Below are positions 5,274 to 59,436 of a stretch of DNA of 64,000 nucleotides, piece by piece. Each line of letters begins with the position of its first letter. Positions within the stretch are counted from its first letter, which is position 1. The position numbers and the translations under genes are program-made. Location of the stretch: assembly GCA_963681505.1 (NCBI GenBank), contig OY811978.1, positions 1,600,483 to 1,664,482 of the forward strand, written 5' to 3'. The stretch is from Eunapius fragilis (Eukaryota; Porifera; Demospongiae; Spongillida; Spongillidae). The notes under the pieces are model-generated. The model did no database searches, was not told the origin of the DNA, and was given only the letters and a program-made list of their open reading frames with translations.

Positions 5274-5539
5274 CTATCTTGCCGTTCCATATGCAGCATT
5301 GCTCTCTAGCTCAATTGTATTGGTTGGCTTCTGATTAATGCCCACCACCTCATATGTGGTAGCAGTAGGGATGGAAGGAGGGGCTTCAGTAGTCATAGAG
5401 GATACTCTTGGGATGTAGCAAACACATATTATGATGGTGGCCACCAAAGCCCCCAGAGAAGAGGAGATGAGAAATGTGACTGCAAATGTTATCCCAACAA
5501 CAGTAGGAATGTTAATAGAGGACGCTGCAATAACTGAAA
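5274..5539 (-). CDS. gene C last exon: TM helix and tyrosine tail
   Basis: The acceptor is TTTTCAG just above 5539; the stop TAG is at 5276-5274. The exon encodes a short lead, a hydrophobic run (VGITFAVTFLISSSLGALVA, continuing TIIICVCYI) and a cytoplasmic part with TTYEVVG and SNAAYGTA. It is almost identical at DNA level to 55650-55388 of gene D, though the flanking introns do not match. Confidence 0.75.
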
Positions 5540-7590
5540 CTGAAAACAAAGCAAGAAATCATTATTAAATATTATAGAAAACTGGGGTAAAAATGGTTTG
5601 CCAATTTTATTTCCATGCATAGTACGTTGTAGCTGAAATTGATACATTAATACCGCAAAATTATTAAAGGTCATGTGCATCTAGCTTGAAGCCATACCTA
5701 TATGCATTAACTTTTTTAGAAGACAAGACCATGCAACAACTATGGAAACCACAGACTGTACAGACCTCACTGTTACATACCTTCCCATATATATTTGGGC
5801 TGTGATAATTTTTGGACATGTACTATATTAATACATTGATACATACCTTATGCCTGTGCATATATATATTTTAGCAATATATAATACATGTATATTTTAG
5901 CAATCATAATTGAACCCTACTAGTATGCTGAGGTATTCTACAAAGCCTTCAATGTGGATCACTTACTAGGAGAGGTGCATGTACACATGGTACAATTGGT
6001 TGGTGATGTAGTAGTGACACTACAAGTGGTAGGTGGTGGAGGCCCTACAAAGAAGAAGACTATAAAACACATACTTGTATACATGAATGTACTGATATTT
6101 ATATAAAACTTCAAGCTTCTAACCATTATGACAACACAGCTGCAAAGAGCAATATTCTGCTTGCAACAAGAGGTACCTTTTGCAATCAAAGTAATGTTTT
6201 GATGATTCCATTAACCTGAACTAACCAATCAGTGAATACCATATGTTCAGAGATTCATCTGAGCAGGATGTATTGGTCATCCTGTTTTTATTTGAGAGTG
6301 AAAACAGTAAACAAAAGGCCTGAAAATATGGTATATGCAACTCTGTAGAGAATCTGGCTTCAACTCACACTAGCTATTAGTCAATAATCCTGCACCATAC
6401 ATTAAGGTGTGCATGGAACTGTAGTGCACAAATTAGAGGACTAGGATATCTATTAGACATACAATAGAAGTTCAATACTATTGGGGTTAAATACATACAC
6501 GTGTACTAACCTGATAAATCAGAAATTTTTTAAAGAGTTATCATGTTTATACTGTTCATGCACATAACACAACTTAGTACACTTAATATATTTGGCATGG
6601 CATATGCCTGGAGCATTGGATACCACCAGCAACCTCCCATATAGGTCAGAGGCAGCCCTGCTGGAGATGGTCGCAAGATAGGAGACAAGACGTGACACTG
6701 ACTCCATAGCTTCTGTCCCCCAAACACCATATGTGCCTCACTATCAAGAGGGACACAATCCCCTCCCCCTTCTCCCCCAAATTTACATCCTTAGACTGCA
6801 ATCAATCTCTTTGATAGTATCTATATAAAAATCTCTACAGCCAAGATGTCTGCAGCCATTGTGAGTATAAGTGTGAATGGAGTCCACTACATGTTTTCAA
6901 TACTGCCTATTACACACATATGCACAAAACACCATTAATGGTACATAATGGTAGGTGTGTACCATTACATCATGCACACAGAGGTCACCTGTACCAAACC
7001 TGTGTACATACATGAGATGTAACGTTGTATACTGGTACTGCTATTCCCAGCACAGTTGATGGCCACTGCTGAGATGTTGTAAGATGAGTCACTCCTCAGT
7101 CCAGTGAAGGTAACCATTGCAGACCCATTGGTGATGACCACAGGAGGACTGGTGGTGTAGCTACTGTTACTGATGGTGACATTGTAGCTTGTGGTAAGAC
7201 CACCACTGGGGGAGGGGTTCACCACCACTAGTACCATGTCTGGACCAATAGTTTGTGCCGTAACATTTGGAGGTCCAGCAGGAGCTGAAAAAATACACGT
7301 CATGGCTGTAGTCAGTTAATACATTAGTGTGCTAATGTGTTGGGGAAGCATACAGCTGTATCAAATTAACATAATATACACTACATGGATTGTATCAAAA
7401 ATTGATCCCTAAAGGATAGAATGCTATGAATGTATGACTGTTTGCCCACATGTACATAGGTGTAGTAACCGTACCACGCGCGGCACTGACTATCGTGCAC
7501 AGAGATAGCAAACACACAATAGCAGTACACACTCACAAACACGATACATAAACCATACAACAGCCTGACGCCAGTCCAGCTGGTATCCAT
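5274..7590 (-). CDS. gene C: small FN3 receptor with ITSM-like tail
   Basis: Four exons are proposed on the minus strand: signal peptide from ATG 7590, FN3 (7284-7012), stalk (6044-5967), and TM plus tail (5539-5274). Every internal junction after the first exon is GT-AG and phase 1. The predicted product is about 240 residues: a signal sequence with core LLYGLCIVFVSVYCYCVFA, one FN3 domain, a Thr/Pro/Cys-rich stalk, one TM helix, and a tail of about 50 residues with TTYEVV, which fits TxYxxV (ITSM consensus). By family logic it would sit in the plasma membrane and signal through SH2 proteins; that is inference. The donor of exon 1 is uncertain. It is the shortest intact-looking member of the cluster. 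Confidence 0.6.
5560..5960. other. intron of gene C
   Basis: AT-rich DNA between the stalk and TM exons. No repeat or ORF of note. Confidence 0.5.
5967..6044 (-). CDS. gene C stalk exon
   Basis: Flanked by TTTGTAG (acceptor) and GTAAGTGA (donor), both phase 1. It encodes a Pro/Thr/Cys-rich linker beginning PPPTTCSVTTTSP. Four Cys in this stalk are unusual for the family. Confidence 0.65.
7012..7284 (-). CDS. gene C FN3 exon
   Basis: 273 nt (91 codons), acceptor TTTTTTCAG, donor GTATGT. It encodes an FN3 domain starting [11 protein letters not shown], with [17 protein letters not shown] in the middle and [15 protein letters not shown] at the G-strand end. It is one of six copies in the window (others at 20.6, 28.06, 35.0, 37.8 and 58.0 kb). 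Confidence 0.8.
7470..7590 (-). CDS. gene C signal-peptide exon (3' limit uncertain)
   Basis: ATG at 7590-7588 follows a TATA box at a sensible distance. The first 28 residues are MDTSWTGVR followed by a long hydrophobic stretch ending YCVFA, a good signal peptide. Two phase-1 donors are possible (GTCAGT or GTTACT), so the end is approximate. Confidence 0.5.
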
Positions 7591-14035: not shown

Positions 14036-14215
14036 CTTGCAATATTTTTGCCTTCCCTTGCCTGGGAATTGTTTTAACTTTACCCCCTCTAAAATCTGTT
14101 TATTAAACTATTGTTCCCCAGTATTAGGCTTATATGTAATCAAAATATAAAGCATCATGATGAAGAAGACGGCTCCCAATCACCTGAAATAACCATAATA
14201 AAGTTACATCCTTAC

Positions 14216-14352
14216 CTATGACCATGATTAGGGTGGTGCTCACTATAGCATTCTGACCAGCTAAAGATCGGGTTCCAACCATGATCAGTGATGATGTTAT
14301 ACTAAAATTTAGTGTTCACTCTCACTGTCAAGGTACTAGTCAGACATGTTTC
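14216..14352 (-). pseudogene. remnant E: 3' half of an Ig-b exon
   Basis: On the minus strand it matches the end of the Ig-b exons at 41.15 and 59.05 kb (TAGTACCTTGACAGTGAGAG ... ATGGTCAT, donor GTAAGG). The 5' half is absent: the homology jumps straight into intron sequence that elsewhere follows an Ig-a exon. In-frame damage is visible, so it is dead. Confidence 0.65.
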
Positions 14353-15590: not shown

Positions 15591-15599
15591 CCCCCATGG

Positions 15600-15860
15600 A
15601 TCTGCCACTGCCTGGATGAGGGGAACATATATTTACAAACAGTATTCAGTACGCATGATTCGTCATAATCTGTGATTCGTCATAACAAGAGATCATACAT
15701 ATGATCTCTGTCATAACTGAGTACGAGTATGGTTAACTAATTCGATGGACGCAGTCTGTGTTACGTACAGACACCAGTGTGCTTGAACGCTGGTAAGTGT
15801 TACCTACAGACACCAGTGTGCTTGAACGCTACAGACTTACCACCGTTCACTTTGTAAAGG
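15600..15860. repeat. upstream block shared with 29.16-29.38 kb
   Basis: It shares GATGAGGGGA, TAATCTGTGATTCGTCATAA, CATATGAT, ACTGAGTACGAGTATG and GTGCTTGAACGC with the region upstream of gene B. It contains an internal short tandem copy (ACAGACACCAGTGTGC twice). Confidence 0.7.
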
Positions 15861-15910
15861 TATGGAAGTAAAAGAGCAATTAGTAGTACCGGCACAAACC
15901 CCATGCTCAC

Positions 15911-15950: not shown

Positions 15951-15964
15951 AGGCGTGGCAAGGC

Positions 15965-19000: not shown

Positions 19001-22000
19001 TCTTTTGATTACACGAAGGCATTTTTAGAATATTAAAACAACTTCACTACCAATAAATTTAGTACAGGTTAGAGTATTTATACTGCCTAAAATTATTAAT
19101 AACACTCTATTGTATATCATTATTAAACAGAACTTGATTTATATGTGTCTATATGACATGTAAGGATAACGTGCCGGTAAATTTCGAAGCGATTGGTACT
19201 ATTGCCGTTCTTCAAAACCGTTCATAGCTCGAGTTATACCTTCCCAAGAAGACGACGACGACCAAGAATTATTATAGGACTGGGCACGAGAAACAGGAAA
19301 TCGTTTGTTTCTCCATAACCACACCACACAGAACAAACGTAGAGCTGTAGATCGTTGTGCTCTCATTCCATCGCGATAAAGAGATAAGCGATCCGTTTCT
19401 CCGTTGTCCCTCCAGATGCTAGTGAAGTTTTATTAATGACATTCATCAACCCTCAATCAATTCTATATTGAACCTGCTGCCCCAGGTTCAGATAATGATC
19501 TGTGCCAAAAGGAGATTTTTTATACTGCTATGATTTGCGATTCGTAGATTCTGGCTGTACTTCAACGAAACTTGTGGGCCAGTTTCCCGTCTCAAAACTT
19601 ACAACCTTTTGCCTGGGGGCTCAGAACATGATGGATTCAATGAATGGGCCTCAGTCACTTTTCAGTTGTTTATTGAGAGGAGTCGAAATTAGACTTTACC
19701 ATGTTCTGCTTCTCGAGTCATAACGAGGAACTTGCAAATCAGTCCTTTACATCTAAGGGTGTTAAAGTTGACTTTTGTGCCAATTGTTTTCTTGCTTTGA
19801 GCAATGAAGTTATTTAACTACTTTAAACAAAGCACTCGCCTGTATGTTATAGTACATATGTACTTTCCTCTCAGGTACCTGTCCACAGTTCACCCCTGTG
19901 GATACTTTCTCATGTCCTGGAGGGAATATCACCTACACCTGTGTCCTTAACTCAACCTCTTTTACTGTGATAACATTATGGAGTGGATCAGCACTTCAAT
20001 GTCCTCCTACTAATCAGATATCACTCCTCCAGAGAGCAGGTGGAGTACTTTCAACATTCACCCCAATATCATGTGGCAGTCTCTCTGCTGTGACAACAGC
20101 TGTTAACTCTTCATGCTACACATCTGTCCTCACCATTCCTGCTGTTCAGGCTCTGAATGGGACCACTGTTATGTGTTCAGATGGTACTACTGGAACTGTA
20201 GTGGGAAGTGATACAGTGAAGATTGTAGGTGGGTTGAAAGTAGCCTCATAGCCAGTCTTTCTTTGAGTAATTGTGATCGATGGGCTCAACACAATATTAC
20301 TCACCATGTTAACATGAGAGTCCCCAGACCATGTATGGGAACAGCCTTGACACCATTAATGATATGTGATTTTATCATCTGAATAAGTCCTTTTTAGGAA
20401 GTACATCATTCGGACTTGCACTGTTGACTATTTGAAGGTTTTCTTATTATCTTATTGGTATTATTCATAAAAAGGCCTATTGTGAACCTAGCTGGGTTGG
20501 GCTATCCTGTGATGTGTGTCTGTGTTTTTATATTATCCTTAACACATCATCACACCAATATGTTATCTGATTTCATGACATGTGTATGTTTCAGCTCCTC
20601 CTGGACCTCCTAATGTTATGGCACAAACCATTGGTCCAGACATGGTACTGGTGGTAGTGACCCCCTCCCCCAGTGGTGGTCTTACCACAAGCTACAATGT
20701 CACCATCAGTAACAGTAGCTACACCACCAGTCCTCCTGTGGTCATGACCAATGGGTCTGCAATGGTTACCTTCACTGGACTGAGGAATGACACTTACAAC
20801 ATCTCAGCAGTGGCCATCAACTGTGCTGGGAATAGCAGTACACAACGTAACTTATCATGTATGTACTCAGGTTTGGTACAGGTGACCTCTGTATGTATGA
20901 TGTAATGTACATGTATCCATGTGTACCATGCATGGGATATATGCTCCTAGGGTTTTACATCTGCTGTGTATGGCTATTACCTCTATGTTATAGTACTATT
21001 ATGGTCACCATGGCTGACTTAGGATTAGGGTTAATCATAATGACAATGATGTATTTGTATGCTCAGCTGTGCACACTATCCTAATCTTATTATTCTGAGG
21101 AAGGTGGGGGGTAGGGGGGGGGGGGGGTACAATTTAGCTTCCAGTTAGTGGGTGTGGCAAACTGAAAGCTATCAATTTTCATTGTCAGGTCATTCAGGCA
21201 CCTACGCCCCCAGATCTAGAGGGATCTGTGTGCTGATGTAGTGTTGTGCGTGGAGTGCTTAAGCTGTTGTACATGTTTGGCATTCTGTGTGCGAGGTGCT
21301 GTTAGCTGGAAACTCCGTACAAGTACATGTACCTTGCTTGGTAGTAGGATAGGTATGGCTAAGGTAAACATGGCTATGGTAGTGGAATGGCTATGATACT
21401 GGTAGAGGGATACCTATTGCTCTGGTAGTTTGATAGCTATGGCTCTGGTAGTGGTGTACCTATTGCTCTGGAAGTGGGATAGCAATGGCTCTGGTATTTG
21501 GGTAACAATGTCTCTGGTAGTGGGATAGGTATGGTTGAGGTAGTGGGATTAATAAAAAAACCTATTGCTACCAGACTTGAACCAGAGCAATAGGTATCCC
21601 ACTACCAGTATCATAGCCATCCCACTACCATAGCAATATTAATTCCACTACGTGTACTGGATATTGATGCCAAAAGTGTCTACATGTATGTGTATAAATA
21701 ATTCCTTGCACACAGGGCCTGCCCCAAGTCCATCACCTCCAACAGCCACTTCTGGTATTCCCATCACCACACCACCAACATCACCAGCAGGTAGGTTATA
21801 CACCAGGTCTTTTTTATGTCCATGTACCTTTTGTGTACATACATGTAGCTGTTTTTAGTCAGTGGAGGTAACCTAGGCCATAATGAGTGATGATGGGGGT
21901 GTAGTACTGCCATGGTTATTGTAATATCTTTAGCCACAATCAGAGTACATGTAACTCATACAGCCACACAAGCTATAATATCTAACTGCGCATGCGCAGA

Positions 22001-27765: not shown

Positions 27766-28056
27766 TTCATTGAAGCATTGATGCTGTGTAGAGACGTCAT
27801 TACGATCATGGCTCAGTCACATCTATAGAGACAAATATCTGATCACTTTCCCTCTTTGTTCCTATAAAACTGTCAATGTGCTTGCTTCATTCATTGATCT
27901 TTCCTTACATGTAGGTCTGTTTCATTCATCAAAACTTGGTACCCCTGCAATCCTATATCTTTATTGAAGATCCTATTTTGTAGTATCCAACATCAGTACA
28001 CCAATGTGTTATCTGACTACAGCCATGACATTTGTATGTTTATGTAATATTTTCAG

Positions 28057-28243
28057 ATGTTACGGCACAAATCATTGGTCCAGACATGTTACTTGTGGTG
28101 ACCCCCTCCCCCAGTGGTGGTCTTACCACAAGCTGCAATGTCACCATCAGTAACAGTAGCTACACCACCAGTCCTCCTGTGGTCATGACCAATGGGTCTG
28201 CAATGGTCACCTTCACTGGACTGAGGAATGACTCATCTTACAA
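28057..28243 (+). pseudogene. broken FN3 exon
   Basis: The acceptor TTTTCAG is followed at once by ATGTTACGGC: the first 18 bases of the usual exon are lost (in frame). A further codon is missing in the ITGPDM-like stretch. The exon is cut after DSSYN; what follows (28244-28276) is an inverted piece of the usual downstream intron. Confidence 0.75.
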
Positions 28244-28479
28244 TGCACACAGAGGTCACCTGTACCAAACCTGTGCATGGTGTAATGGTACAAACCTATG
28301 TACATGTTATGCATGTGTATACATGTGTACCATATGAAGATGTGTTATGATATACATGGAGCGTACAATGATCATCTATAGATTAAGCTATCTGTATGCA
28401 TGTATGTTTTACGTCCTACTTAACATCTTCTGGTGGTGTGGTTACCTAAAGCCTTTAGTTGGTGTTATTTCTCATATAG

Positions 28480-34000: not shown

Positions 34001-37000
34001 ATCATTAACTCAATATTTGAATACCTCAGAATATTAATCAGAACAATTCAGTTGTATATTGTGATGAGTCGAAATTAGACTTTTCCACGTTCTGTCTCTC
34101 AGGTCATAATGAGGACCAATAAAAAAGAACTTGCAAATCAGTCCTTTACAATTAAGGGCCTTACCTTTTGTGCCAATGGTTTTAAGCAATGAAGTTATTT
34201 AACTACTTTTAAAAAACAAAGTGCATGAATTTTATAGTATGTACTATACATATGTACCTTCCTCTTAGGTACCTGTCCACAGTTCACCCCTGTGGATACC
34301 TTCTCATGTCCTCAAAGCATCATCAACTACACCTGTGTCCTTAACTCAACCTCTCCTACTGTGATAACATTATGGAGTGGATCAGCACTTCAATGTTCTC
34401 CTACTAACCAGATATCACTGCTCCAGAGAGTAGCTGGAACAGTTCAAGCATTCACCCCAGTATCATGTGGCAGTCTGTCTGCTGTGACAACAGATGTTAC
34501 CTCTTCATGCTACACATCTGTCCTCACCATTCCTGCTGTTCAGGCTCTGAATGGGACCACTGTTATGTGTGCAGATGGTGTTACTGGAACTGTAGTGGGA
34601 AGTGATACAGTGAAGATTGTAGGTGGGTTGATAGTAGCCTCATAGCCAGTCTTTCATTGAGCCATTGTGATTGATGGGCTCAACACAATATTACATTTAG
34701 CCATTGTTTGAGGAAAACATGACTCCCCAGACCATCTATGCAAACAGCCTTCACAAGCATATGTTAATGCATTATTACATGTTATGTGACCTTAAAATCT
34801 TAATAAGTCCTTTTTGCTAAATAGTATATAATTTGAATTTGTACTGTTGTAGAATATTTTGGTATTATATTCTGTATACCTGAGTTGGGTATCCCATGTG
34901 TGTGTCTGTGTTTTTACATTAACCTTAACACATCAGTGCACCAATGTGTTATCTGACTACAGACTTCATGGCATGTACATGTATATGCTAATATTTTCAG
35001 CTCCTCCTGGACCTCCGAATGTTACGGCACAAACCATTGGTCCAGATATGGTACAAGTGGTGGTGACCCCCTCCCCCAGTAGTGGTCTTACCACAAGCTA
35101 CAATATCACCATCAGTAACAGTAGCTACACCACCAGTCGTCCTGTGGTCATGACCAATGGGTCTGCAATGGTCACCTTCACTGGACTGAGGAATGACTCA
35201 TTTTACAACATCTCAGCTATGGCCATCAACTATGCTGGGAATAGCAGTACCAGTATACAACGTTACATCTCATGTATGTACACAGGTTTGGTACAGGGAC
35301 CTCTGTATGCATGATGTAATGGTACATGCCTATGTACATGTATCCATATGTACATGTGTACCATATGGAAGTGTGTTATGATATATACATGGAGCGTACA
35401 CCATATATGGTCATAAATATGGGTGTTAGGACATTATTATGCTGTGCTCACCTTTGGAGAAATACATGGCCACCTCTAGTGTGTGATAATGGTATGATAA
35501 TGGGTGTCAGATAATGTCTATGTCATGGGGGGGGGGGGGGGGCAATTGTTAATAGGCTGACTGCTCTTAGTATTCACACACAGTCAAGAGCTCATACCCT
35601 TATGATGATCAGAAATAGATTAAGCTATCTGTATGCATGTGTATTTTACGTCCTACTTAACATCTTGTGGTGGGTGTGGCTACCTAAAGCCTTTAGGTGG
35701 TGGATGTGGTCAGATGCCAAAAGTTTCTGTGTGTATGTGCATAAATAAGTGTTATTTCCCTGCACACAGGGCCTGCTTCAGCTCCAACACCTGGTAAGTT
35801 ATGCTGTACACCTGTGCATACCAGAGTCTTTGTTAGGTCCCTTTGTGTACATAGCTGTTTTTGGCAGAGGGTGGAGGTCATAATGATATTCTATGTGTGT
35901 GAGTGATGGGGGGGGGGGGGGGTATGGTTAAATAATGAAATAGTCTATTGGGCAAGAATGTCAAACCACCCCTTTGTCAACCAGTGCGTATGGACATACA
36001 GTACACATGTAGGTAATACCAGTGTGTGTGTGTGTGCACATGTACAGACATACAGTACACATGTAGGTAATACCAGTGTGTGTGTGTGTGTACACATGTA
36101 CAGACATACAGTACACATGTAAGTAATACCAGTGTGTGTGTGTGTGTGTGTGTGTGTGTACACATGTACAGACATACAGTACACATGTAGGTAATACCAG
36201 TGTGTGTGTGCACATGTACAGACATACAGTACACATGTAGGTAATACCAGTGTGTGTGTGTGCACATGTACAGACATACAGTACACATGTAGGTAATACC
36301 AGTGTGTGTGTGTACACATGTATAGACATACAGTACACATGTAGGTAATACCAGTGTGTGTACACATGTACAGACATACAGTACACATGTAGGTAATACC
36401 AGTGTGTGTGTGTGCACATGTACAGACATACAGTACACATGTAGGTAATACCAGTGTGTGTGTGTACATGTACAGACATACAGTACACATGTAGGTAATA
36501 CCAGTGTGTGTGTGTGCACATGTACAGACATACAGTACAGTTTCTCGAGAAAAGAAACCAAGTTTGAGCAGAGATAATATGTTATCTCTGGTTTGAGCGT
36601 GGTTTAAACTTGGATTTGTTTGAGTAGGAAGTGACAAGTTTTGTGAACACCTCTGCACCCCTGGCTCTGTAGACGACCGGTATCTCCAAGATCTGTAGAC
36701 TTGAAGACATGCTTAAGTTGTAGCGTTAGAAGGTTTAATTAGAGAGGTGACGGACAGGTCTAGTGTTGCTGGCTGTCCCATGCACAAGTTGGGTAAAATA
36801 ATGTCTGTTGCATGGACAATGGTCCTTTAATGTAAAATCATTAATTCAATATTTGAATACCCTAGAATATTAATCAGAACAATTCAGTTGTATATTGTGG
36901 TGAGTGGAAGTTAGACTTTTCCACGTTCTGTCTCTCAGGTCATAATGAGGACCAATAAAAAAGAACTTGCAAATCAGTCCTTTACAATTAAGGGCCTTAA

Positions 37001-40000
37001 CTTTTGTGCCAATGGTTTTAAGCAATGAAGTTATTTAGCTACTTTTAAAAAACAAAGTGCATGAATTTTATAGTATGTACTATACATATGTACCTTCCTC
37101 TTAGGTACCTGTCCACAGTTCACCCCTGTGGATACCTTCTCATGTCCTCAAAGCATCATCACCTACACCTGTGTCCTTAACTCAACCTCTCCTACTGTGC
37201 TTACAATATGGAGTGGATCAGCATTTCAATGTTCTCCTACTAACCAGATATCACTGCTCCAGAGAGTAGCTGGAGTACTTCAACCATTCATCCCAATGTC
37301 ATGTGGCAGTCTCTCTGCTGTGACAACAGATGTTACCTCTTCATGCTACACATCTGTCCTCACCATTCCTGCTGTTCAGGCTCTGAATGGGACCACTGTT
37401 ATGTGTGCAGATGGTGTTACTGGAACTGTAGTGGGAAGTGATACAGTGAAGATTGTAGGTGGGTTGAGAGTAGTCTCATAGCCAGTCTTTCTTTGAGCCA
37501 TTGTGATTGATGGGCTCAACACAATATTACATTTAGCCATTGTTTGAGGAAAACATGACTCCCCAGACCATCTATGCAAACAGCCTTGACAAGCATATGT
37601 TAATGCATTATTACATGTTATGTGACCTTAAAATCTTAATAAGTCCTTTTTGCTAAATAGTATATAATTTGAACTTGTACTGTTGTAGAATATTTTGGTA
37701 TTATATTCTGTATACCTGAGTTGGGTATCCCATATGTGTGTCTGTGTTTTTACATTAATCTTAACACATCAGTGCACCAATGTGTTATCTGACTACAGAC
37801 TTCATGGCATGTACATGTACATGCTAATATTTTCAGCTCCTCCTGGACCTCCAAATGTTACGGCACAAGCCATTGGTCCAGACATGGTACTAGTGGAGGT
37901 GACCCCCTCCCCCAGTGGTGGTCTTACCACAAGCTACAATGTCACCATCAGTAACAGTAGCTACACCACCAGTCCTCCTGTGGTCATGACCAATGGGTCT
38001 GCAATGGTCACCTTCACTGGACTGAGGAATGACTCATCTTACAGCATCTCAGCAGTGGCCATCAACTGTGCTGGGAATAGCAGTACCAGTATACAACGTT
38101 ACATCTCATGTATGTACACAGGTTTGATACAGGGACCTCTGTATGTATGATGTAATGGTACATGCCTATGTACATGTATCCATGTGTACATGTGGACCAT
38201 ATGGGGCTGTGTTATGATACACATGGAGTGTACACCATATATGGTCATATGCCAATATGGGTGTTAGGACATTATTATGTGCTCACCTTTGGAGAAATAC
38301 ATGGCCACCTCTAGTGTGTGATAATGGTATGATAATGGTGTCAGATAATGTCTATGTCATGGGCGGGGGGGGGGGGGGGGTGGGGGGGGGCACATGTTAA
38401 TAGGCTGACTGCTTATAGTATTCAGGAGCTCATACCCTGATGATAGATTAAGCTATCTGTATGCATGTATATTTTACGTCCTACTTTACATCTTCTAGTA
38501 GGTGTGGCTACCAAGGTGGTGGATGTGGTCAGATGCCAAAAGTTTCTGTGTGTATGTGCATAAATAAGTGTTATTTCCCTGCACACAGGGCCTGCTTCAG
38601 CTCCAACACCTGGTAAGTTATGCTGTACACCTGAGCATACCAGAGTCTTTGTTAGGTCCCTTTGTGTACATAGCTGTTTTAGTCAGAGGGTGGAGGTCAT
38701 AATGATATTCTATGTGTGTGAGTGATGGGGGGGGGGGGGGGTATGGTTAAATAATGAAATAGCCTATTGGGCAAGAATGTCAAACCACCCCTTTGTCAAC
38801 CAGTGCGTATGGATATACAGTACACATGTAGGTAATACCAGTGTGTGTGCACATGTACAGACATACAGTACACATGTAGGTAATACCAGTGTGTGTGTGT
38901 GCACATGTACAGACATACAGTACACATGTAGGTAATACCAGTGTGTGTGTGTGCACATGTACAGACATACAGTACACATGTAGGTAATACCAGTGTGTGT
39001 GTGTGTGTACATGTACAGACATACAGTACACATGTACGTAATACCAGTATGTGTGTGTGCACATGTACAGACATACAGTACACATGTAGGTAATACCAGT
39101 GTGTGTGTGTGTGCACATGTACAGACATACAGTACACATGTAGGTAATACCAGTGTGTGTGTACATGTACAGACATACAGTACACATGTAGGTAATACCA
39201 GTGTGTGTGTGTGTGTACATGTACAGACATACAGTACACATGTACGTAATACCAGCATGTGTGTGTGCACATGTACAGACATACAGTACACATGTAGGTA
39301 ATACCAGTGTGTGTGCACATGTACAGACATACAGTACACATGTAGGTAATACCAGTGTGTGTGTGTGTGTGCACATGTACAGACATACAGTACACATGTA
39401 GGTAATACCAGTGTGTGTGTGGACATGTACAGACATATAGTACACATGTAGGTAATACCAGTGTGTGTGTGCACATGTACAGACATACAGTACACATGTA
39501 GGTAATACCAGTGTGTGTGCACATGTACAGACATACAGTACACATGTAGGTAATACCAGTGTGTGTGTGTGCACATGTACAGACATACAGTACACATGTA
39601 GGTAATACCAGTGTGTGTGTGTACATGTACAGACATACAGTACACATGTACGTAATACCAGTATGTGTGTGTGCACATGTACAGACATACAGTACACATG
39701 TAGGTAATACCAGTGTGTGTGCACATGTACAGACATACAGTACACATGTAGGTAATACCAGTGTGTGTGTGTGCACATGTACAGACATACAGTACACATG
39801 TAGGTAATACCAGTGTGTGTGTGTACATGTACAGACATACAGTACACATGTACGTAATACCAGTATGTGTGTGTGCACATGTACAGACATACAGTACACA
39901 TGTAGGTAATACCAGTGTGTGTGCACATGTACAGACATACAGTACACATGTAGGTAATACCAGTGTGTGTGTGTGCACATGTACAGACATACAGTACACA

Positions 40001-43000
40001 TGTAGGTAATACCAGTGTGTGTGTGCACATGTACAGACATACAGTACACATGTAGGTAATACCAGTGTGTGTACACATGTACAGACATACAGTACACATG
40101 TAGGTAATACCAGTGTGTGTGTGTGCACATGTACAGACATACAGTTCACATGTAGGTAATACCAGTGTGTGTGTGTGCACATGTACAGACATACAGTACA
40201 CATGTAGGTAATACCAGTGTGTGTGTGTGCACATGTACAGACATACAGTACACATGTAGGTAATACCAGTGTGTGTGCACATGTACAGACATACAGTACA
40301 CATGTAGGTAATACCAGTGTGTGTACACATGTACAGACATACAGTACACATGTAGGTAATACCAGTGTGTGTGTGTGCACATGTACAGACATACAGTTCA
40401 CATGTAGGTAATACCAGTGTGTGTGTGTGCACATGTACAGACATACAGTACACATGTAGGTAATACCAGTGTGTGTGTGTGCACATGTACAGACATACAG
40501 TACACATGTAGGTAATACCAGTGTGTGTGCACATGTACAGACATACAGTACACATGTAGGTAATACCTGTGTGTGTGTACACATGTACAGACATACAGTA
40601 CACATGTAGGTAATTCCAGTGTGTGTGTGCACATGTACAGACATACAGTACACATGTAGGTAATACCAGTGTGTGTGTGTGCACATGTACAGATATACAG
40701 TACACATGTAGGTAATACCAGTGTGTGTGTGTGTGCATGTACATACATACAGTACACATGTAGGTAATACCAGTGTGTGTGTGTGTGTGTGCACATGTAC
40801 AGATATACAGTACACATGTAGGTAATACCAAGTTGTCACATTACCAGTCCTCCTCCCCAGTCCATGCCCATACTGCATTGATGAGTAGTATGTATGTGTA
40901 TGTTGAGTGTTGTGTGTGTGCCTGTGGCTAAGCTGTTGTATTTTTGTGTACAACTTGTACATCTAGAGCGGGCGGTATTGTCAGGTTCATTTTATATATC
41001 GTGTTAGGTACCTAGGAACAATCCCAAAATAGGTTTCTGTTTGCACACTTTACTGTCATATGCATATGTTCCTATCTTCACATTGATGAGGAAGTATATT
41101 GGTGTACATGTACAAGTATCCAATGTAACCCACCTCTTCCCCCAGAGATCCTGATATGTCAGGTCAAAGGACGTGTGGTACCATGTCCTCCTGTAGCCTG
41201 TCCTGGGGACCAGGTGACCTTTACGTGGACTGCCCTAGCTCTTGTTGGTAGCAACCTATGGGTCCTGCCCAGTGGATCATGCAGTAGTTCCACCACACCA
41301 GATAGCATTGTGTTAACTCAGATTCAAAATACTTGCAGAGGTGCGACCATGACCTGTGGACCATATACAGCAACCAATGTGGATCCTGGTCCATCCACAC
41401 CATGTCTGACTAGTACCTTGACAGTGAGAGTGAACACTAGTATGACATCATCACTGATCATGGTTGGAACCCAAGATGTGTCTGCTCAGAATAATATTAT
41501 GAACACCACCCAAATCATGGTCATTGGTAAGAATGTATCTATACAACCTGTTGGTAATTTTAATCAGAATCATTATCCACAAGGGTGGTTGGTGGCATTG
41601 AGATGTAGTATTGGTATTCAGCTTGTGGTACTGGGCATGCATGAAGATGCCTTCTATAGACACAAGTGATAAAATTATTCTCTATATGAGAAGGTTGGTG
41701 GTATATAGGAATCAAAGGCGATGGTGGTGTAAAAAGCAAGGGAACAAGACTTCTGATTGAAAAGGAAAAATGAAATAGACCTATATTAGCAGCATGTTGT
41801 CATATTTAACTGTGTGAGGCCAGACAGATGCACTGTAAAGTTCAAGAGAATTTACACCAGTCCAGCTTGGAGTCCATTCTAGCAAAGTTCACACATGAGC
41901 GACAGAGATCAATACGAAGGGCAATAATAAAACATCAGCATGGCTGAATGTGGTCACATTAGAGAGTTGTCACTTTGACCTAGCACTCATTCAATGTATG
42001 GATGATTTGGCAATTCGATATCAACGGCAACCTTCCTGTATACCTATCAAGTTGATGGATGTAGTGCATATTTCACGTTGCAACATGCATTAGACTGTAA
42101 GACAGGTGGTCTTGTCATCCAACGACATAACGAAGTTTGAGACTGTCTTGGGGATATGCATGGCTGCTCAAGTATGGAGCCAGGTTGTACGTGAACAAAT
42201 TGTCAAAGAGGCTGAATCCAAAGCAGATGGTCCAGGATTGAGGAGCAATCTTGGCATTTCTAGGTGTCTGGACTCCCCGGGTGGACGCATTGCTTGATTT
42301 GAGTTGATTGACACGGCAAAATGTATCCTTATCTATTAAGGCATTGGCAACAACATCTGTGCCTTGTTTAGATGTTTTGAAGATCTATGTTGGCATACAT
42401 GTAGGGTCAAGTACTCGTAGACCTGCTAGGCGTGTCGGCAGTGCAAACAACTGCTGTTCAGCGTCAGATAGGCTTCCATCAAACAAGGCTGGCAAAAATA
42501 ATTCTTGATTGTGTCTTGTAGTACCATGAATTCATCACTGCAGCCTAGTACTACCCTTTGTATGAAGCCCCATTCACACTGAAGTGACTTTGTCATGCTT
42601 GCAAATGCTGCTTGAGGTGTCTTGGTAGCAGCATGTGATAGATGTTGCACACATTTCACCCAGCCATCCGCCTTCCCATGGATATAAGACTTCTGACTGT
42701 CCTTATCTCCAATCCCGGCCCCCACCGAGGAAACAATGGCCTGATACAACAATCACACCATGAGCTCTTTTCCTTCTTCTTCATATTTTTTAGTTACAAC
42801 CAAAAAACTCTTGGTGGGTTCAGCAAAGTAGCCATATGCAGGACCGAACTGAATAAGACGATTAAGCCATGAGTGAATGTGGGACAGCTTCCCAGCACAG
42901 GTCGAGTCATCAGCATACCAACACTGCAAATACTTTTATCAGTGGCAGGAATACATCAACATTGACATTGGATCACCTTGCGTAACTCCCTCTCTACTAT

Positions 43001-46000
43001 ACAGAAATTCATACAACCCCTTACAATCAACTTAGCATAGCCTCTGTAGGTATTGAACAGGAAGCGACTGCACCTAAGCCATAAAACATGTGCATTCCAA
43101 AGAGCTGCCTCTCTGTTGATCATGTTAAAGCATCAATGAGGAGGAATCCCCAACCAACACATCCTATAGAGCAGTCATGCCATGAATAGCACCCTTGATG
43201 CCTGCTTTGAGCCCAGTTGCTAGCTGTTCAACTCCATAAACCTCTTCTACATCTCTTCCAGTTACAAGTGCCATGGTCTTGCATATGACTCGACACAAAC
43301 ATTCTCCAATACCAATTGGTCTGACTCCAGGACATTTATCTAAAATTTTTAATGATATATCACGACCCGGGTCAATTCCTATATAGGAACTACTAACGTA
43401 ATTCCTGATGTATATATGTGTACATGTATACCTGTTAAGTTACATGGAGTGTACACCATATATGGTCATAAGGCAATATGGGTGTTAGGACATTATTATG
43501 CTGTGCTCACCTTTGGAGAAATACATGGCCACCTCTAGTGTGTGATAATGGTATGATAATGGGTGTCAAGGTAATGTCTATGTCTTTGGGGGGGGGGGGG
43601 GGGGGGGGCAATTGTTAATAGGCTAACTGCTCCTAGTATCACGAGCTCATACCCTGATGATGATCATGTATAGATTAAGCTATCTGTATGCATGTATATT
43701 TTACGTCCTACTTAACATCTTGTGGTGGGTGTGGCTAACTAAAGCCTTTAGTTGGTGTTATTTCTCACACAGGGCCTGCTTTATGTCCATCAGCTCCAAC
43801 AACCACTTCTAGTGTTCCCATCACATCACCAACTCTATCACCAAAAGAAGGATCCACCACAGGTAAGTTATGCTGTACACCTGAGCATAAAACAGTCCAA
43901 AGGACTGTGAGCTTGAGGAGGAAAAATTAGGGCTTAGGGCAGGGTAGGGGGAGCCGAAGGCCCGCTACGCCGACCCAACTTTTCACCCTCTCTCCGAATT
44001 CGCTCTCCAATTGCACCCGTCCCTCCCTCCCGACATTCTTCGTTGAAACTCACTAACTCTCCCCTTCCTTAATAACGCCATCTTTAAGTGAACGAGGCGC
44101 CTTTGGCGCCATACTCTACTTTCCTACCAGAGTCTTTGTTAGGTCCCTTTGTGTACATAGCTGTTTAGTCAGAGGGTGGAGGTCATAATGATATTCTATG
44201 TGTGTGAGTGATGGGGGTACTGACATGGTTATTTTAGTTAAATCAAGACCTAACTACATTAACTTAATCTACAGACCTTCTTAACTACTGAGCATAACTG
44301 CAAGATGGTGTCCAGTGGGGGAGGGGGAGGGGGGTTGGAAACACGACATTGTCCAGGAAGGGTTTTGGAAATACATGTATGTCCTGAGTGAGATGGTAGC
44401 ATGGGGAGGGGGGTAGCACGTAAAAGATAAGCTTGTCCTGGGGTGGGTTAGAAATATGTCCCGGAGGGTCAGGGGAGATGTTACCAAGTAGAAGCTTGTC
44501 CGGGGGCTATTTTGAAAAAACCTATCGTGGGAGGTATAAATATAACAAAAGCTTGTCCAGGAGTGGTTTTATATACAGTCCAGGGGGTGGGTGGGGTGGG
44601 GGTTACGTTTCAATTATTGTCATCTGTAGGGGTGTGTGGTTAAATAATGGAATACCCTATTGGGCAGGAATGCCAAACCGCCTATTTGTCAACCAGTGCG
44701 TATGGATATACAGTACACATGTAGGTAATACCAGTGTGTGTGCACATGTACAGACATACAGTACACATGTAGGTAATACCAGTGTGTGTGTGTGCACACA
44801 TGTAGGTAATACCAGTGTGTGTGTGTGCACATGTACAGACATACAGTACACATGTAGGTAATACCAGTGTGTGTGTGTGTGTGTACATGTACAGACATAC
44901 AGTACACATGTACGTAATACCAGTATGTGTGTGTGCACATGTACAGACATACAGTACACATGTAGGTAATACCAGTGTGTGTGTGCACATGTACAGACAT
45001 ACAGTACACATGTAGGTAATACCAGTGTGTGTGTGCAAATGCACAGACATACAGTACACATATAGGTAATACCAGTGTGTGTGTGTGCACATGTACAGAC
45101 ATACAGTACACATGTAGGTAATACCAGTGTGTGTGTGTGTACATGTACAGACATACAGTACACATGTAGGTAATACCAGTGTGTGTGTGTGTGTACATGT
45201 AAAGACATACAGTACACATGTAGGTAATACCAGTGTGTGTGTGCACATGTACAGACATACAGTGCACATGTAGGTAATACCAGTGTGTGTGTACACATGT
45301 ACAGACATACAGTACACATGTAGGTAATACCAGTGTGTGTGTACACATGTACAGACATACAGTACACATGTAGGTAATACCAGTGAGTGTGTGTGTGTGC
45401 ACATGTACAAACATACAGTACACATGTAGGTAATACCAGTGTGTGTGTGCACATGTACAGACATACAGTACACATGTAGGTAATACCAGTGTGTGTGTAC
45501 ACATGTACAGACATACCGTACACATGTAGGTAATACCAGTGTGTGTGTGTGCACATGTACAGACATACAGTACACATGTAGGTAATACCAGTGTGTGTGT
45601 GTACACATGTACAGACATACAGTACACATGTAGGTAATACCAGTGTGTGTGTGTGTGCACATGTACAGACATACAGTACACATGTAGGTAATACCACTGT
45701 GTGTGCACATGTACAGACATACAGTACACATGTAGGTAATACCAGTGTGTGTGTACACATGTACAGACATACCGTACACATGTAGGTAATACCAGTGAGT
45801 GTGTGTGTGCACATGTACAGACATACAGTACACATGTAGGTAATACCAGTGTGTGTGTGCACATGTACAGACATACAGTACACATGTAGGTAATACCAGT
45901 GTGTGTGCACATGTACAGACATACTGTACACATGTAGGTAATACCAGTGTGTGTGTGTGCACATGTACAGACATACAGTACACGTAGGTAATACCAGTGT

Positions 46001-47426
46001 GTGCAAACTAACTCTTAACTAATTTTAGTTGCAAGGGACATGTGTTAATTGCATGCCACCTCTTACATGTGTATCCCTGTACACAGGGCCTGCCTCACCT
46101 CAACCAACAACTTCTGGTGTTCCCATCACCTCATCTACTCCATCACCACCACCATCCAACACAGCTACAGGTACTTATCCTCCATATGATTGCATCTTTG
46201 TGTACATGTACAGACATACAGTACACATGTAGGTAATACCAGTGTGTGTGTGTGCATATGTACAGACATACAGTACACATATAGGTAATACCAGTGTGTG
46301 TATGCACATGTACAGACATACAGTACACATGTAGGTAATACCAGTGTGTGTGTGTGCATATGTACAGACATACAGTACACATATAGGTAATACCAGTGTG
46401 TGTGTGTACATATACAGACATACAGTACACATGTAGGTAATACCAGTGTGTGTGTGTACATGTACAGACATACAGTACACATGTAAGTAATACTAGTGTG
46501 TGTGTGTACATGTACAGACATACAGTACACATGTATGTAATACCAGTGTGTGTGTGTACATGTACAGACATACAGTACACATGTAGGTAATACCAGTGTG
46601 TGTGTGTGTGTGCACATGTACAGATATACAGTACACATGTAGGTAATACCAGTGTGTGTGTGCACATGTACAGACATACAGTACACATGTAGGTAATACC
46701 AGTGTGTGTGTGTGCACATGTATAAACATACAGTACACATGTAGGTAATCCCTCTTTCTCCTCTCCTCTTAACCCTACCTCTCCCATCCCCTCCCACCTC
46801 CTCCCATTGCACTATATGTGCATATCTACAGTTTCTATAAGTCCAATGATAGGTCCAGTTGGTGCAGTAGTAGGTGGAGTAGTTGGAGGTGTGGCCCTTC
46901 TGGTCATCATCATCATAGTCATCATTGTGGTGGTCCTGTTACGTCCAAAGGGTAACAAGACAGAAGGTAGGCCATGAGTGAACTTTCCATATTTGACATT
47001 TTGGTTTTCTTTGTACAGCTGATAACACTATGCCACTGAAGTACAAAATGGAATCAATCAGGTATGTGTGTCATGTATGTACCCTGGTGTGTTTTTGGTT
47101 GTGGGCATTTTTATACTGCGCATTGTATTTAACCCCTGGACACATTAGCCCCGCCCCACCATCCCGTGGACCTCGTACAGAAACTCCTCCCCCTGGGGAA
47201 CCTTCTGTATATGCAGTTGTTGACAACTCCATGAAGCCAAAAAACCAACCAGTATGAACTTATATTTTCATGTATGTGCACACACCTTGTCACCATCATG
47301 ACATCACCTCCACCCATCACATCCAATCACATCACATAATAACCCTCAAGGTACTGCACTCACACACCAGCACTCACACACCAGCACAAGTTTGCATACC
47401 AGCACTCGCACACCAGCACACATGTG

Positions 47427-49818: not shown

Positions 49819-49925
49819 CAGACCAAAGGAAGTGTGGTATGTCCTCCTATGGCCCTGTCCTGGGGACCAGGTTGATCAGGTTGCTACCAACAAGAGCTGG
49901 GGTAGTCCATGTAAAGGTCACCTGG
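49803..49925. pseudogene. Ig-b exon fragment folded on itself
   Basis: 49810-49872 matches the start of Ig-b in plus orientation (GTGTGGTA, TGTCCTCCT, CCTGTCCTGGGGACCAGG). 49873-49923 is the next part of the same exon inverted (TTGCTACCAACAAGAGCTGG ... AAAGGTCACCTGG). The exon was cut and inverted at that point. Confidence 0.75.
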
Positions 49926-50054
49926 TTGAACTACAGTGCATGCTACATGGAAAGGTGGAAGGTGAATGAGTAGAAGGAAGGATGGGGGAGAGGGAGAGGA
50001 GGAGGGAGGAGAGGAGGAGAAATAGGTAAAGGGAAATAGAGTGAGGTCAAGAGA

Positions 50055-55650: not shown

Positions 55651-58600
55651 CTGAAAACAAGAACATATGGAATACCATGTCTGGCATGCACACAAGATGT
55701 ACTCAGCCTAATAGCAAGCCATTAATATCAATTTATTAAGAATCTATATTACATTACAAGCTATAGCTAGCAATACTGCAACATTTGGTTAGAAGACAAT
55801 TGAGTGCACAATGGAAATATAAATATTTAAATTGGCCATTCAAGTTGGATGGAACGATGGAATAGGGTTTTCATCAGTCTGGAAGCCAGCTATAAAGAGC
55901 CATTCACTGACTGACTACCCCTGGCTATAAAGGTATCAACAACCAGAGGCATCTCAGCTTATCACTGGAGCCATGCTTTCTGGTAGTGTAAGTGAATGTA
56001 GTAGTCAGGACATTTTTAAGTCAGGAGATCCAGACCTCAAGTCCAGATATCAGCCTGGAGTGGCTAACTCAATGACCACATCACAGGCATGGTGGTCTAG
56101 GCCTTATAAGGGCACAGGGAGCACAGGGCCTTATAAGGGCACAGGAAGCACAGGGCCTTATAAGGGCACAGGGAGCACAGGGAGCGCAGGGCCTTATAAG
56201 GGCACAGGGAGCACAGGGCCTTATAAGGGCACAGGGAGCACAGGGCCTTATAACAGGGAGTCCAGGGAGCACATGGAGTGTCCAATCAAATGCTCATGCC
56301 ATCAAATTGACCAAGATAGAGGCCAAAACCCTTCAAAAAATGAGGTGGAGGGGAGGAAGACTGAACGCAACATAGGGTCCTCCTCCCCAGGCCTAGAGGA
56401 CCACCCTCACCCCCAGCTAATGACATGTCTTCACCCGCCATCATATTTACAGCAATCCACCTTCAGCTGACACATGGACTACTAGGTCAGGTGACACATG
56501 GACCACTAGGTCAGGTGGCACATGGACCACTAGGTCAGCTGGCACATGGACCACTAGGTCAGGTGGCACATGGACCACTAGGTCAGCTGGCACATGGACC
56601 ACTAGGTCAGGTGACACATGGACCAGTAGGTCAGGTGGCACATGGACCACTAGGTCAGCTGGCACATGGACCACTAGGTCAGCTGGCACATGGACCACTA
56701 GGTCAGGTAGCACATGGACCACTAGGTCAGGTAGCACATGGACCACTAGGTCAGCTGGCACATGGACCACTAGATAAAAGCTGACACATGGACCAGTAGG
56801 TCAGGTGGCACATGGACCACTAGGTCAAGTGGCACATGGACCACTAGGTTAGGTGGCACATGGACCACTAGGTCAGGTGGCACATGGACCATTAAGTCAG
56901 CTGGCACATGGACCACTAGGTCAGGTGGCACATGGACCACTAGGTCAGCTGGCATATGGACCACCAGGTCAGGTGGCACATGGACCACTAGGTCAGCTGG
57001 CACATGGACCACTAGGTCAGGTGGCACATGGACCACTAGGTCAGGTGGCACATGGACCACTAGGTCAGGTGGCACATGAACCACTAGGTCAGGTGGCACA
57101 TGGACCAGTAGGTCAGGTGGCACATGGACCACTAGGTCAGGTGGCACATGGACCACTAGGTCAGTTGGCACATGGACCACTAGGTCAGGTGGCACATAGA
57201 CCACTAGGTCAGGTGGCACATGGACCACTAGGTCAGGTGGCACATGGACCACTAGGTCAGGTGGCACATGGACCATTAGATCAGGTGGCACATGGACCAC
57301 TAGGTCAGGTGGCACATGGACCACTAGGTCAGGTGGCACATGTGCGTAGTGATATTGTTGTGCGATTTTATAGATAGTATTTCTAATATGCTTTTTGCTG
57401 CTTGCTGTTAACCGGCCTACAAGTATTCTCAAACACAATGCTGTTGTCATATTCAGTACAGCAAACACCAAACCCAAGTATTCATCACATGAGGCTGGTG
57501 TCAACAAAGTGACTGATCCATATATTGTCTGGTAACATAGCTATTGACATTAATAATGAAAACTGCTTAGCGTAAGTCTACAAATAGGCTCTAGGAACCA
57601 GATGTGCAAACACACTAATGAATACGTACTGAAATATGCTCATATGTGCATAAATATAATACCTACATGTAGATGGTGATGGTGATGGTGATGGTGATGG
57701 TGATGTTGATGATATAGAAGTGGTTGGTAGAGGTGATGGATTTGCACATCTCCATACATATGCCTGTACCATTACATCATGCATACAGAGGTCGCCTGTA
57801 CCAAACCTGTGTACATACATGAGATGTAACGTTGTATACTGGTACTGCTATTCCCAGCACAGTTGATGGCCACTGCTGAGATGTTGTAAGATGAGTCATT
57901 CCTCAGTCCAGTGAAGGTGACCATTGCAGACCCACTGGTCATGACCACAGAAGGACTGGTGGTGTAGCTACTGTTACTGATGGTAACATTGTAGCTTGTG
58001 GTAAGACCACCACTGGGGGAGGGGGTCACCACCACTAGTACCATGTCTGGACCAATGGTTTGTGCCATAACATTTGGAGGTCCAGGAGGAGCTGAAAATA
58101 TTACATAAACATACACATGTCATGGCTGTAGTCAGATATGTACTTGATGTTGGGAACATAAGTACACTGTAAGAATGCTATAATATGAATTCTGAGCTTT
58201 GTCTATATGTACTCAAGCAAGGAAAAACTTTCTCTAACGAGAAAGTTAGTGGGATATAGGAATTGGAGGCAAAGGTGGTGTAAAAAGGGAAGGGAACAAG
58301 GTTTTTGGGAAGGGGAAATATTTACAAACACACTGTTGTATGCCAACCAGCACTTATCCTTTGCTATTGGAGGATCGCTGTTCAAAGTCTTCCAAGTGCA
58401 TTAAATGCTGCACAATTGAATGAACACTTGTGTGTACATGACTGTCATAGTACCTGCCCACACTGCTACATGTACAGTTTTCTATAGTCACATGTAATTG
58501 TACAACAAAATTGAAAGACATGATCAGTGTACCGTATCAAGTTAAATCATCAGGTTTTTGGCCAGTAGTTGCATGACATGTAATGGAAATGTCTGTAGAA

Positions 58601-59436
58601 TTGCTTTAAAGTGTAGTTGATTGGTAAAACACACCAACACTTTTAGGGTGTACAAACAACCTAACCCCAGCAACACCAGATCAGAGTTTGCTGTAACATA
58701 TCATGTAGGCATTGTGATCAGACTCATTATCACATGGCATTAGTAATATTGATAACAGTAGTGACAACCACAATGATCAGATGGGTCCAAAGGCAGGAAC
58801 ATAACCTCCTGCACTTGTTTCACATTATGGGCTTTGTATAATTCCTTACAGAGGACATGGCATAAGTCATGTGACATGCACTGCAGAAAGTATATGTCCA
58901 TAGAAGCCATCTTCATGCATGCCCAGTACCACACACTGAATACTAAGGTTAATCTTTGTCAAATTTGACACCTTGCAACCTTGTGGATAATGATTCTGAT
59001 TAAAATTACCAACAGGCAGTATACATACTCAAAATAACATTCTTACCAATGACCATGATTTGGGTGGTGTTCATAATATTATTCTGAGCAGACACATCTT
59101 GGGTTCCAACTTTGATCAGTGATGATGTCATACTACTATTCACTGTCACTGTCAAGGTACTAGTCAGACATGGTTTATTTGCACCAGGGTCAACATTGGA
59201 TACTGTAAATGGTCCACAGGTCATGGTCACAGCTCTGCAAGTATTTTGAATCTGAGACAGTACAATGCTATCTGGTGTGGTAGAATTACTGCATGATCCA
59301 CTGGGCAGGACCCATAGGTTGTTAGCAACAAGAGCTGGGGTAGTCAACGTAAAGGTCACCTGGTCCCCAGGACAGGCTGCAGGAGGACATGGTACCACAC
59401 CTCCATTGACCTGACATGTCAATGTCTGGGCATGGG
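55388..59436 (-). CDS. gene D: Ig-b/FN3 receptor with ITSM-like tail, 5' end unclear
   Basis: Exons seen: Ig-b (59436-59047), FN3 (58091-57819), a probable stalk near 57760-57670, TM plus tail (55650-55388). Known junctions are GT-AG and phase 1. No certain signal exon was found: an in-frame ATG at 59545 reads through the acceptor, and a TATA-like site with a good donor lies at 60.3-60.4 kb. The tail exon is nearly the same as in gene C, including TTYEVV. The stalk-TM intron is filled by 24- and 27-bp minisatellites. Confidence 0.6.
56097..56256. repeat. 27-bp minisatellite
   Basis: About six units of CCTTATAAGGGCACAGGGAG CACAGGG, one with an inserted GCACAGGGA. Confidence 0.9.
56466..57345. 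repeat. 24-bp minisatellite (about 36 units)
   Basis: Unit GGTGGCACATGGACCACTAGGTCA in two main variants (GGTGGC and GCTGGC). One irregular unit at 56770-56785. Open in several frames because 24 is a multiple of three. Confidence 0.95.
57670..57765 (-). CDS. gene D probable stalk exon with hexamer repeat
   Basis: Minus strand reads NPSPLPTTSISSTSPSPSPS, coded by (CCATCA)n, then a possible donor GTAGGT. Pro/Ser content and position fit a stalk. The acceptor does not give the expected phase 1, so limits are uncertain. Confidence 0.35.
57819..58091 (-). CDS. gene D FN3 exon
   Basis: 273 nt, begins [11 protein letters not shown], acceptor ATTTTCAG, donor GTATGT. One substitution (SPSVVMTSGS) relative to other copies. 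Confidence 0.8.
58215..58310. mobile_element. fragment of the 17.4-kb MITE family
   Basis: TTTCTCTAACGAGAAAGTTA, GGGATATAGGA and GGTGGTGTAAAAAG match the MITE's outer arm. Confidence 0.55.
59047..59436 (-). CDS. gene D Ig-b exon
   Basis: 390 nt (130 codons), acceptor ATTTTCAG, donor GTAAGA. Starts HAQTLTCQVNGGVVPCPP, about nine nt longer than the gene B copy. [10 protein letters not shown] and [11 protein letters not shown] mark the fold. Confidence 0.75.

Follow-up and report, generated by a model that had tools for sequence, protein, structure and literature searches.

The 64,000-nucleotide (nt) stretch of the Eunapius fragilis genome analysed here (contig C8, 1,600,483–1,664,482; hereafter the window, whose positions are used for genes and exons unless C8 is named) is a slice of a cluster on C8 predicted to hold dozens of cell-surface receptor genes, with outer building blocks common to two kinds of receptor that carry different inner tails. 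These two transmembrane (TM)/tail classes, which draw on the same immunoglobulin-like (Ig-like) and fibronectin type III (FN3) exons, are newly described here. A sequence-only reading of the window had proposed a shuffling receptor cluster at 5274..59436 that reuses six cassettes on both strands. The receptor cluster with reused cassettes is real, and richer than originally described. Signal, Ig-a (IgA), Ig-b (IgB), FN3, serine/threonine/proline (S/T/P)-rich stalk and TM/tail exons were all located on both strands, where that reading had placed them. A cluster does lie inside the window, as proposed, but it extends far outside it, and the single TM/tail cassette turned out to be two different ones, one per strand in the window.

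Two receptor classes in one cluster

Exon copies in the window were placed by tblastn with seeds taken from open frames; with the seed itself excluded, full-length window copies give E values of 2e-48 to 2e-75, well past what chance would yield. For FN3 the seed was a composite of the window copies, which served both for the genome search (218,937,333 bases in 24 contigs) and for the initial Pfam query. L-numbers (L011, L034, L035, L050 and so on) denote further loci of the same genome, fetched for comparison. Among the matches listed, 42 FN3 copies lie at C8 0.32–1.96 Mb, with one each on C10 and C12. FN3 of the window type is present at least 44 times at 82–99% identity, 40 near full length and 4 partial (150 matches scored of 273 candidates), and the remaining FN3 matches listed reach at most 56% identity, bar one short piece at 69%.

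Tail-a carries YxxV and NxxYG motifs, whereas tail-b follows a different TM and is a proline-rich tail with YxxV. Of 132 candidates for tail-a relatives in the genome, 118 match at E 1e-3. TM-b DNA gives 13 matches at 12 places; the tail of a second TM-b subtype is found at 8 places, and a third TM type, from L050, once in the main cluster. Between C8 1.30 and 1.97 Mb the classes are sorted by strand: tail-a is on the minus strand in 18/18 cases (some partial), and the other TMs found are all on the plus strand (8/8; 7 TM-b and 1 of the third type), while Ig exons divide evenly, 14 plus and 15 minus. With copies treated as independent, this sorting has p = 6.4e-7.

Related material lies elsewhere on C8 and beyond. 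A TM family resembling that of L050 occurs on both strands at C8 2.47–2.95 Mb (14/16 matches), and additional groups of Ig exons and tails related to those of the window, at roughly 28–86% identity, are present at C8 4.0–5.8 Mb, C3 11.4–14 Mb and on C9. At C8 ~500–545 kb (L043, L044), IgB, FN3 and tail exons form mirror-image pairs (506916-/539069+, 508826-/537015+, 518717-/527179+), either a palindrome or an assembly fold.

Gene models in the window

The sequence-only reading had counted at least four genes and two remnants. The remnants stand, but we arrive at three complete gene models, G1, G6 and P, and a partial unit, G2; the gene count falls because the plus-strand IgA–FN3 units at 34.3 and 37.1 kb and the IgB exon at 41.1 kb would fit one gene, P. 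Full IgA exons lie at 14.8 kb on the minus strand and at 19.9, 34.3 and 37.1 kb on the plus strand, and full IgB exons at 59.4 kb (minus) and 41.1 kb (plus). FN3 exons are found at 58.1 and 7.3 kb (minus) and at 20.6, 35.0 and 37.8 kb (plus), and tail-a exons at 55.6 and 5.5 kb (minus), with fragments besides. All ectodomain junctions of G1, G6 and P are phase 1–1, with AG acceptors and GT donors, as had been claimed for every junction, but the junction between the two cytoplasmic exons of P is phase 2.

G1, on the minus strand, encodes 344 amino acids (aa) in the order signal–IgA–FN3–stalk–TM-a:

15841..15904, minus: signal-peptide exon MGFVPVLLIALLLPYLYKVNG, donor GTAAGT, phase 1; resembles the signal exons of L046 and L047
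14447..14800, minus: IgA exon, mosaic with gene P
7012..7284, minus: FN3 exon, PF00041 at 30.4 bits (cut-off 25)
5967..6044, minus: stalk exon, S/T/P-rich
5274..5539, minus: TM-a and tail exon with TTYEVV and NAAYG, including the stop

G6, also on the minus strand, reads signal–IgB–FN3–TM-a (324 aa); a scan found no stalk exon:

59497..59545, minus: signal exon, with weak donor GTCTGT and a 60-nt intron or read-through
59047..59436, minus: IgB exon
57819..58091, minus: FN3 exon, PF00041 at 29.5 bits
55388..55650, minus: TM-a and tail exon, including the stop

The G6 intron between FN3 and TM, in which no stalk exon was found, holds a 24-bp minisatellite of about 36 copies (56463–57342).

P, which is predicted to be one spliced gene on the plus strand (31030–47257), reads signal–IgA–FN3–stalk–IgA–FN3–stalk–IgB–stalk–TM-b–cytoplasmic 1–cytoplasmic 2, and its 709 aa are open through all 12 exons:

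31030..31099, plus: signal-peptide exon, 23 aa, donor GTATGT, phase 1
34269..34622, plus: IgA exon 1
35001..35273, plus: FN3 exon 1, PF00041 at 29 bits
35770..35793, plus: stalk exon 1, 24 nt
37105..37458, plus: IgA exon 2, in the second copy of the tandem module
37837..38109, plus: FN3 exon 2, PF00041 at 32.6 bits
38589..38612, plus: stalk exon 2, 24 nt
41146..41526, plus: IgB exon
43773..43862, plus: stalk exon 3
46832..46966, plus: TM-b exon, matched at the DNA level by 6 further plus-strand sites in C8 1.30–1.97 Mb
47019..47061, plus: cytoplasmic exon 1
47149..47257, plus: cytoplasmic exon 2 with SVYAVV, and stop TGA at 47255–47257

The TM-b frame of P is the strongest hydrophobic frame on the plus strand of the window beyond 21.8 kb. 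Recent duplication, another feature of the sequence-only reading, is plain in the tandem module, where 33707–36539 and 36543–39338 are 93.8% identical.

Exon sharing between classes and strands

Synonymous divergence (dS) of FN3 is 0.00–0.11 in gene pairs with an IgA dS of 0.3–0.4. Distances between FN3 exons hardly differ within and between classes (0.0284, 0.0348 and 0.0319). FN3 was unstructured by class in a test that compared 8 tail-a exons with 5 others, of which P contributed two, and that excluded L043, L044, G2, L035 and L052; the between-minus-within difference of 0.0018 was reached by 1183 of 5000 label shuffles.

The IgA exon of G1 consists of a core like that of P, which lies on the opposite strand, between flanks like those of G2. 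Within the core (14756–14498) P is matched at 18 informative sites and G2 at 0; outside it P is matched at 10 and G2 at 43, and 0 of 10000 shuffles were as clustered. Along the IgA alignment the proportion of synonymous differences (pS) is 0.27 over codons 1–72 and drops to 0.03 over codons 73–97. The proportion of nonsynonymous differences (pN) declines alongside, which points to a homogenised block rather than selection on the protein. Furthermore, the opposite-strand neighbours L034 and L035 share their IgB exon at 98.3% identity, FN3 at 96.3%, signal at 92% (36 bases) and stalk at 80%, and their introns gave no alignment at E 1e-6. Gene conversion, or an equivalent exon-sized exchange, is the plain reading of this sharing.

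Ig-like and FN3 domains

The FN3 assignment was repeated on four real window exons, all of which score above the gathering cut-off of 25 for PF00041 (29.0–32.6 bits). The IgA and IgB exons of the window match 0 Pfam families, and Pfam Ig_2 is found in 2 of 51 relatives, with a best E of 0.032; 40 Ig relatives were hand-picked from longer lists. When a profile of the 51 rows was compared with the PDB, 50 of 51 matches up to E 10 were Ig domains, judged by their names (best E 0.055). A 13-row profile gave 4/4 Ig matches, and the same rows reversed gave a single match, not to Ig.

The canonical Ig pattern comprises a cysteine in strand B, a tryptophan in strand C and a cysteine in strand F. In IgA, C23, W36 and C101 are invariant in 15/15 rows; in IgB the tryptophan is invariant in 11/11 rows, with no cysteine at the B and F places, strand names being assigned from the motif. 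The profile evidence is weak; both exon types may have an Ig fold, and we call them Ig-like.

Selection by exon

pN/pS was estimated with a codon bootstrap for 15 IgA, 10 IgB, 16 FN3 and 14 TM/tail exons (13 distinct, L011 and L047 being the same locus). The dS and pN/pS sets omit L026 (=L048), L036 (=L045), L015/L019 (=L045/L048), L020, L038, L044, the second FN3 type and later-fetched exons. The ratios are 0.84 (0.61–1.12) for IgA, 0.82 (0.57–1.12) for IgB, 0.80 (0.46–1.56) for FN3 and 0.54 (0.33–0.96) for TM/tail. The three ectodomain intervals include 1 and thus give no clear purifying selection on the ectodomain. Purifying selection over all ectodomain exons is what the sequence-only reading had named as evidence against it; this was not seen, but positive selection was not shown either, the outer exons being indistinguishable from 1.

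Cytoplasmic tail motifs

By general knowledge of such motifs, the tail tyrosines are read as parts of immunoreceptor tyrosine-based inhibitory motifs (ITIMs) or switch motifs (ITSMs) and as putative PTB or SH2 binding sites. The patterns used, TxYxx[VI] for ITSM and [ILVS]xYxx[ILV] for ITIM, are permissive. ITSM is present in 12 of the 14 rows of the tail-a alignment, ITIM in 1 and neither in 1 (11, 1 and 1 of the 13 distinct). Twenty further tail-a paralogues were chosen from the 118 for divergence, 15 at 38–53% identity and 5 at 69–86%. Y[ED]xV is kept in 17/20 and NxxY in 20/20, with the ITSM pattern in 10/20 and strict ITIM in 3/20; among the 15 most divergent the counts are 13/15 for Y[ED]xV and 15/15 for NxxY.

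Two of the ten tail-b copies read have a strict ITIM, P (SVYAVV) and L098 (SLYTSV). Of the other eight, six keep YxxV (L094, L097 and L099–L102, the tails of L099 and L100 being identical), and L095 (AVFAAV) and L096 have lost it. Neither window TM core, TM-a or TM-b, contains a charged residue, and neither the two window tails nor the ten tail-b copies showed an immunoreceptor tyrosine-based activation motif (ITAM) pattern.

Deep homology between the two tails was considered and set aside: both read YxVVxxxxKPxN, but BLASTP between them finds nothing and 349 of 5000 shuffles match as well. Viral and genome contig collections returned no relatives of the tail, in a search that may leave out records of this genome.

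Interpretation

A young, recombining receptor cluster with two signalling classes and a candidate recognition role is the best explanation and, in our view, a reasonably probable one. The sequence itself shows how the exons are laid out and that their frames are open, the two classes and their sorting by strand at C8 1.30–1.97 Mb, the sharing of exons with a mosaic tract, and the conserved motifs; the Ig fold, a single spliced P transcript, conversion as the mechanism, signalling, the ligand and any recognition role are our inference. A young, still turning-over cluster would build single-pass receptors from phase 1–1 exons (signal, Ig-like, FN3, stalk and TM/tail) in two main signalling classes, one with tail-a (ITSM/ITIM-like YxxV and NxxYG) and one with tail-b (another TM, a proline-rich tail and YxxV). 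Ectopic gene conversion and duplication would move Ig and FN3 exons between genes, classes and strands, and through this movement both classes would keep similar binding faces. The distal Ig domain or domains would bind a cell-surface or microbial ligand, and phosphorylated tail tyrosines would carry the signal. The birth-and-death of modular single-pass surface receptors on which the sequence-only reading had based its recognition locus is borne out, with cassettes shared across strands, but the recognition role itself is a hypothesis, for which the cluster is a good candidate, whether in self/non-self or in microbe detection.

A bolder form would make this a paired-receptor system evolved in sponges: a megabase complex of two opposite-strand classes, in which conversion between inverted genes keeps copying Ig and FN3 exons from gene to gene and gives two different tyrosine tails a single binding repertoire to read out. 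It would serve as the sponge allorecognition or microbe-sensing complex. We advance this form tentatively and think it somewhat doubtful.

Several observations weigh against the favoured explanation. The evidence base is genomic DNA of one haplotype. The p value for strand sorting overstates independence because tandem duplication violates it, and the sorting may reflect only tandem duplication of an inverted gene pair; C8 0.1–1.0 Mb is unsorted, with 8 tail-a copies on the plus strand against 5 on the minus strand, and TM-b at 2 against 1. The Ig profile matches are weak and, PDB antibodies being many and alike, not independent, and an AlphaFold2 model of IgA from 15 close sequences reached only a failing predicted local distance difference test score (pLDDT) of 35.6. 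Positive selection was shown for no exon type, no pN/pS estimate being above 1. A strict ITIM is present in only 1 of the 9 tail-b copies other than P (L098), and the ITIM pattern also occurs 4 times in the P ectodomain. The single-gene model of P is not certain, since a phase-1 signal-exon scan of 30501–47000 returned, besides 31030, two weaker ones at 32114 and 35605 (donors GTGAGG and GTGTGT, respectively); from the second module to the IgB exon the same scan listed none.

Ordinary tandemly duplicated cell-adhesion molecules, passively homogenised and without a recognition role, would account for some of this. Ig–FN3–TM is, as general knowledge has it, a widespread adhesion architecture, FN3 domains are abundant in the genome (at least 150 matches scored, of 1588 candidates), and a pN/pS close to 1, with no clear sign of positive selection, agrees with a loosened constraint on redundant copies. 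Two tail classes on one ectodomain pool and tyrosine motifs kept through deep divergence nevertheless point to signalling receptors, and most exon copies listed read free of stops; we regard this account as unlikely. A microbe-driven expansion of pathogen or symbiont pattern-recognition receptors, with no self/non-self role, has a better chance, though still short of even. According to PMC6208332, microbial patterns elicit a response of Ig-domain genes in two other sponges, and sponges of low microbial abundance are reported to have Ig-like and FN3 genes in greater abundance, yet no feature of the locus separates a microbial from a self/non-self role. Last, the locus could be mostly a pseudogene graveyard, the units on the plus strand being dead copies without tails or silent donors of cassettes: none of the 18 tail-a matches in C8 1.30–1.97 Mb is on the plus strand, G2 and several pieces are incomplete, and no TM was found for the plus-strand units G2, L035 and L052, a point that also weighs against the two-class cluster. 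Against this, several units on the plus strand possess signal exons and stalks as well as TM-b and tails, and all 12 exons of P are open. Silent tail-less donors are thereby ruled out for units with signal, stalk, TM-b and tail, and possible for G2, L035 and L052. The graveyard account is already largely refuted for P and the plus-strand genes with TM-b, and as a whole we find it very improbable.

Relation to known systems

In its mode of action the two-class cluster would resemble the paired receptors of vertebrates that gene conversion keeps alike. According to PMC2832619, CEACAM1 and its ITAM-bearing relatives have very similar Ig ectodomain exons on different TMs and tails, in some vertebrate pairs the common tract barely reaches the introns, and there are stretches with little or no synonymous change. 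SIGLEC11/SIGLEC16 (PMC5701461) are another such pair, with closely similar Ig exons on different TMs and tails. Similar ectodomains on different TM/tails are indeed what we find in the sponge; opposing signals (ITIM versus ITAM or charged TM) were not found in the window TMs and tails or the ten tail-b copies. With no charged TM residue and no ITAM, we liken the cluster to paired receptors and do not file it as a member. Unlike the vertebrate pairs, the sponge cluster has FN3 and stalk exons, and its classes are strand-sorted in part of the cluster.

The Alr complexes of Hydractinia and Podocoryna are, according to PMC11067881 and PMC13119343, big clusters of single-pass immunoglobulin-superfamily genes with many pseudogene-like models and AlphaFold-aided assignment. 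The likeness lies in cluster architecture; unlike Alr, the sponge cluster has FN3 cassettes and two exon-sharing tail classes. Within Porifera, Ig/FN3 repertoires (PMC6208332 and PMC4772301) and aggregation factors (cited in PMC5450542) are likewise candidate recognition molecules. No account of a two-class Ig–FN3 cluster was found in the literature on sponge Ig/FN3 receptors, allorecognition and paired receptors, at title and abstract level and with subscription papers thinly covered.

An Amphimedon graft study (PMC5450542) found no significant enrichment of cell-adhesion or aggregation-factor genes, and given that result the molecular basis of sponge graft rejection looks unsettled. The candidate complex of 1.6 Mb opens this question to direct testing, since an alternate haplotype (GCA_963681495.1) and RNA-seq (ERR11641155) of the species have been deposited. 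Should the paired-receptor likeness be true, exon-sharing paired receptors would exist outside vertebrates; the mode of working is known from vertebrates, and a sponge version with strand-sorted classes would be new.

Other features of the window

Copies in the window range from intact to broken, as the sequence-only reading had noted. For the partial unit G2, scans of the window gave no signal exon and no tail-a or TM-b match before gene P.

19875..20228, plus: G2 IgA exon
20595..20858, plus: G2 FN3 exon
21716..21790, plus: G2 stalk exon
28056..28316, plus: broken FN3 remnant
14214..14315, minus: IgB remnant adjoining the G1 IgA exon
49877..49927, minus: IgB fragment, 17 aa
38815..40830, plus: 52-bp minisatellite after the second module of P
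22343–22509, 23620–24844, 36022–36539 and 44715–46749: further minisatellite arrays

In plus-strand genes of the window, as in 2 of 3 fetched plus-strand loci (L050, L051), FN3/stalk units are followed by the 52-bp minisatellite; a 42-bp repeat array is also recurrent. Scans of the window found no tRNA and no Rfam family.

Inside the G1 intron between IgA and FN3, open frames at 10673–13267 (minus) match reverse transcriptase, RNase H and integrase, and we take them to be Gypsy-like; the frame at 10673–11110 has no Pfam match. The region upstream of G1 (14843–16402) has a degenerate copy at 28840–33715, inside the P interval or next to it; this copy may include a decayed signal exon (E 0.11). 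A lysine-rich repeat open reading frame (ORF) at 61427–62149 (plus), with no Pfam match, has an inverted partial copy at 18.4–19.5 kb (minus). In addition, an ORF at 277–759 (plus) shows sub-threshold matches to Ulp1/C48 peptidase and acetyltransferase.

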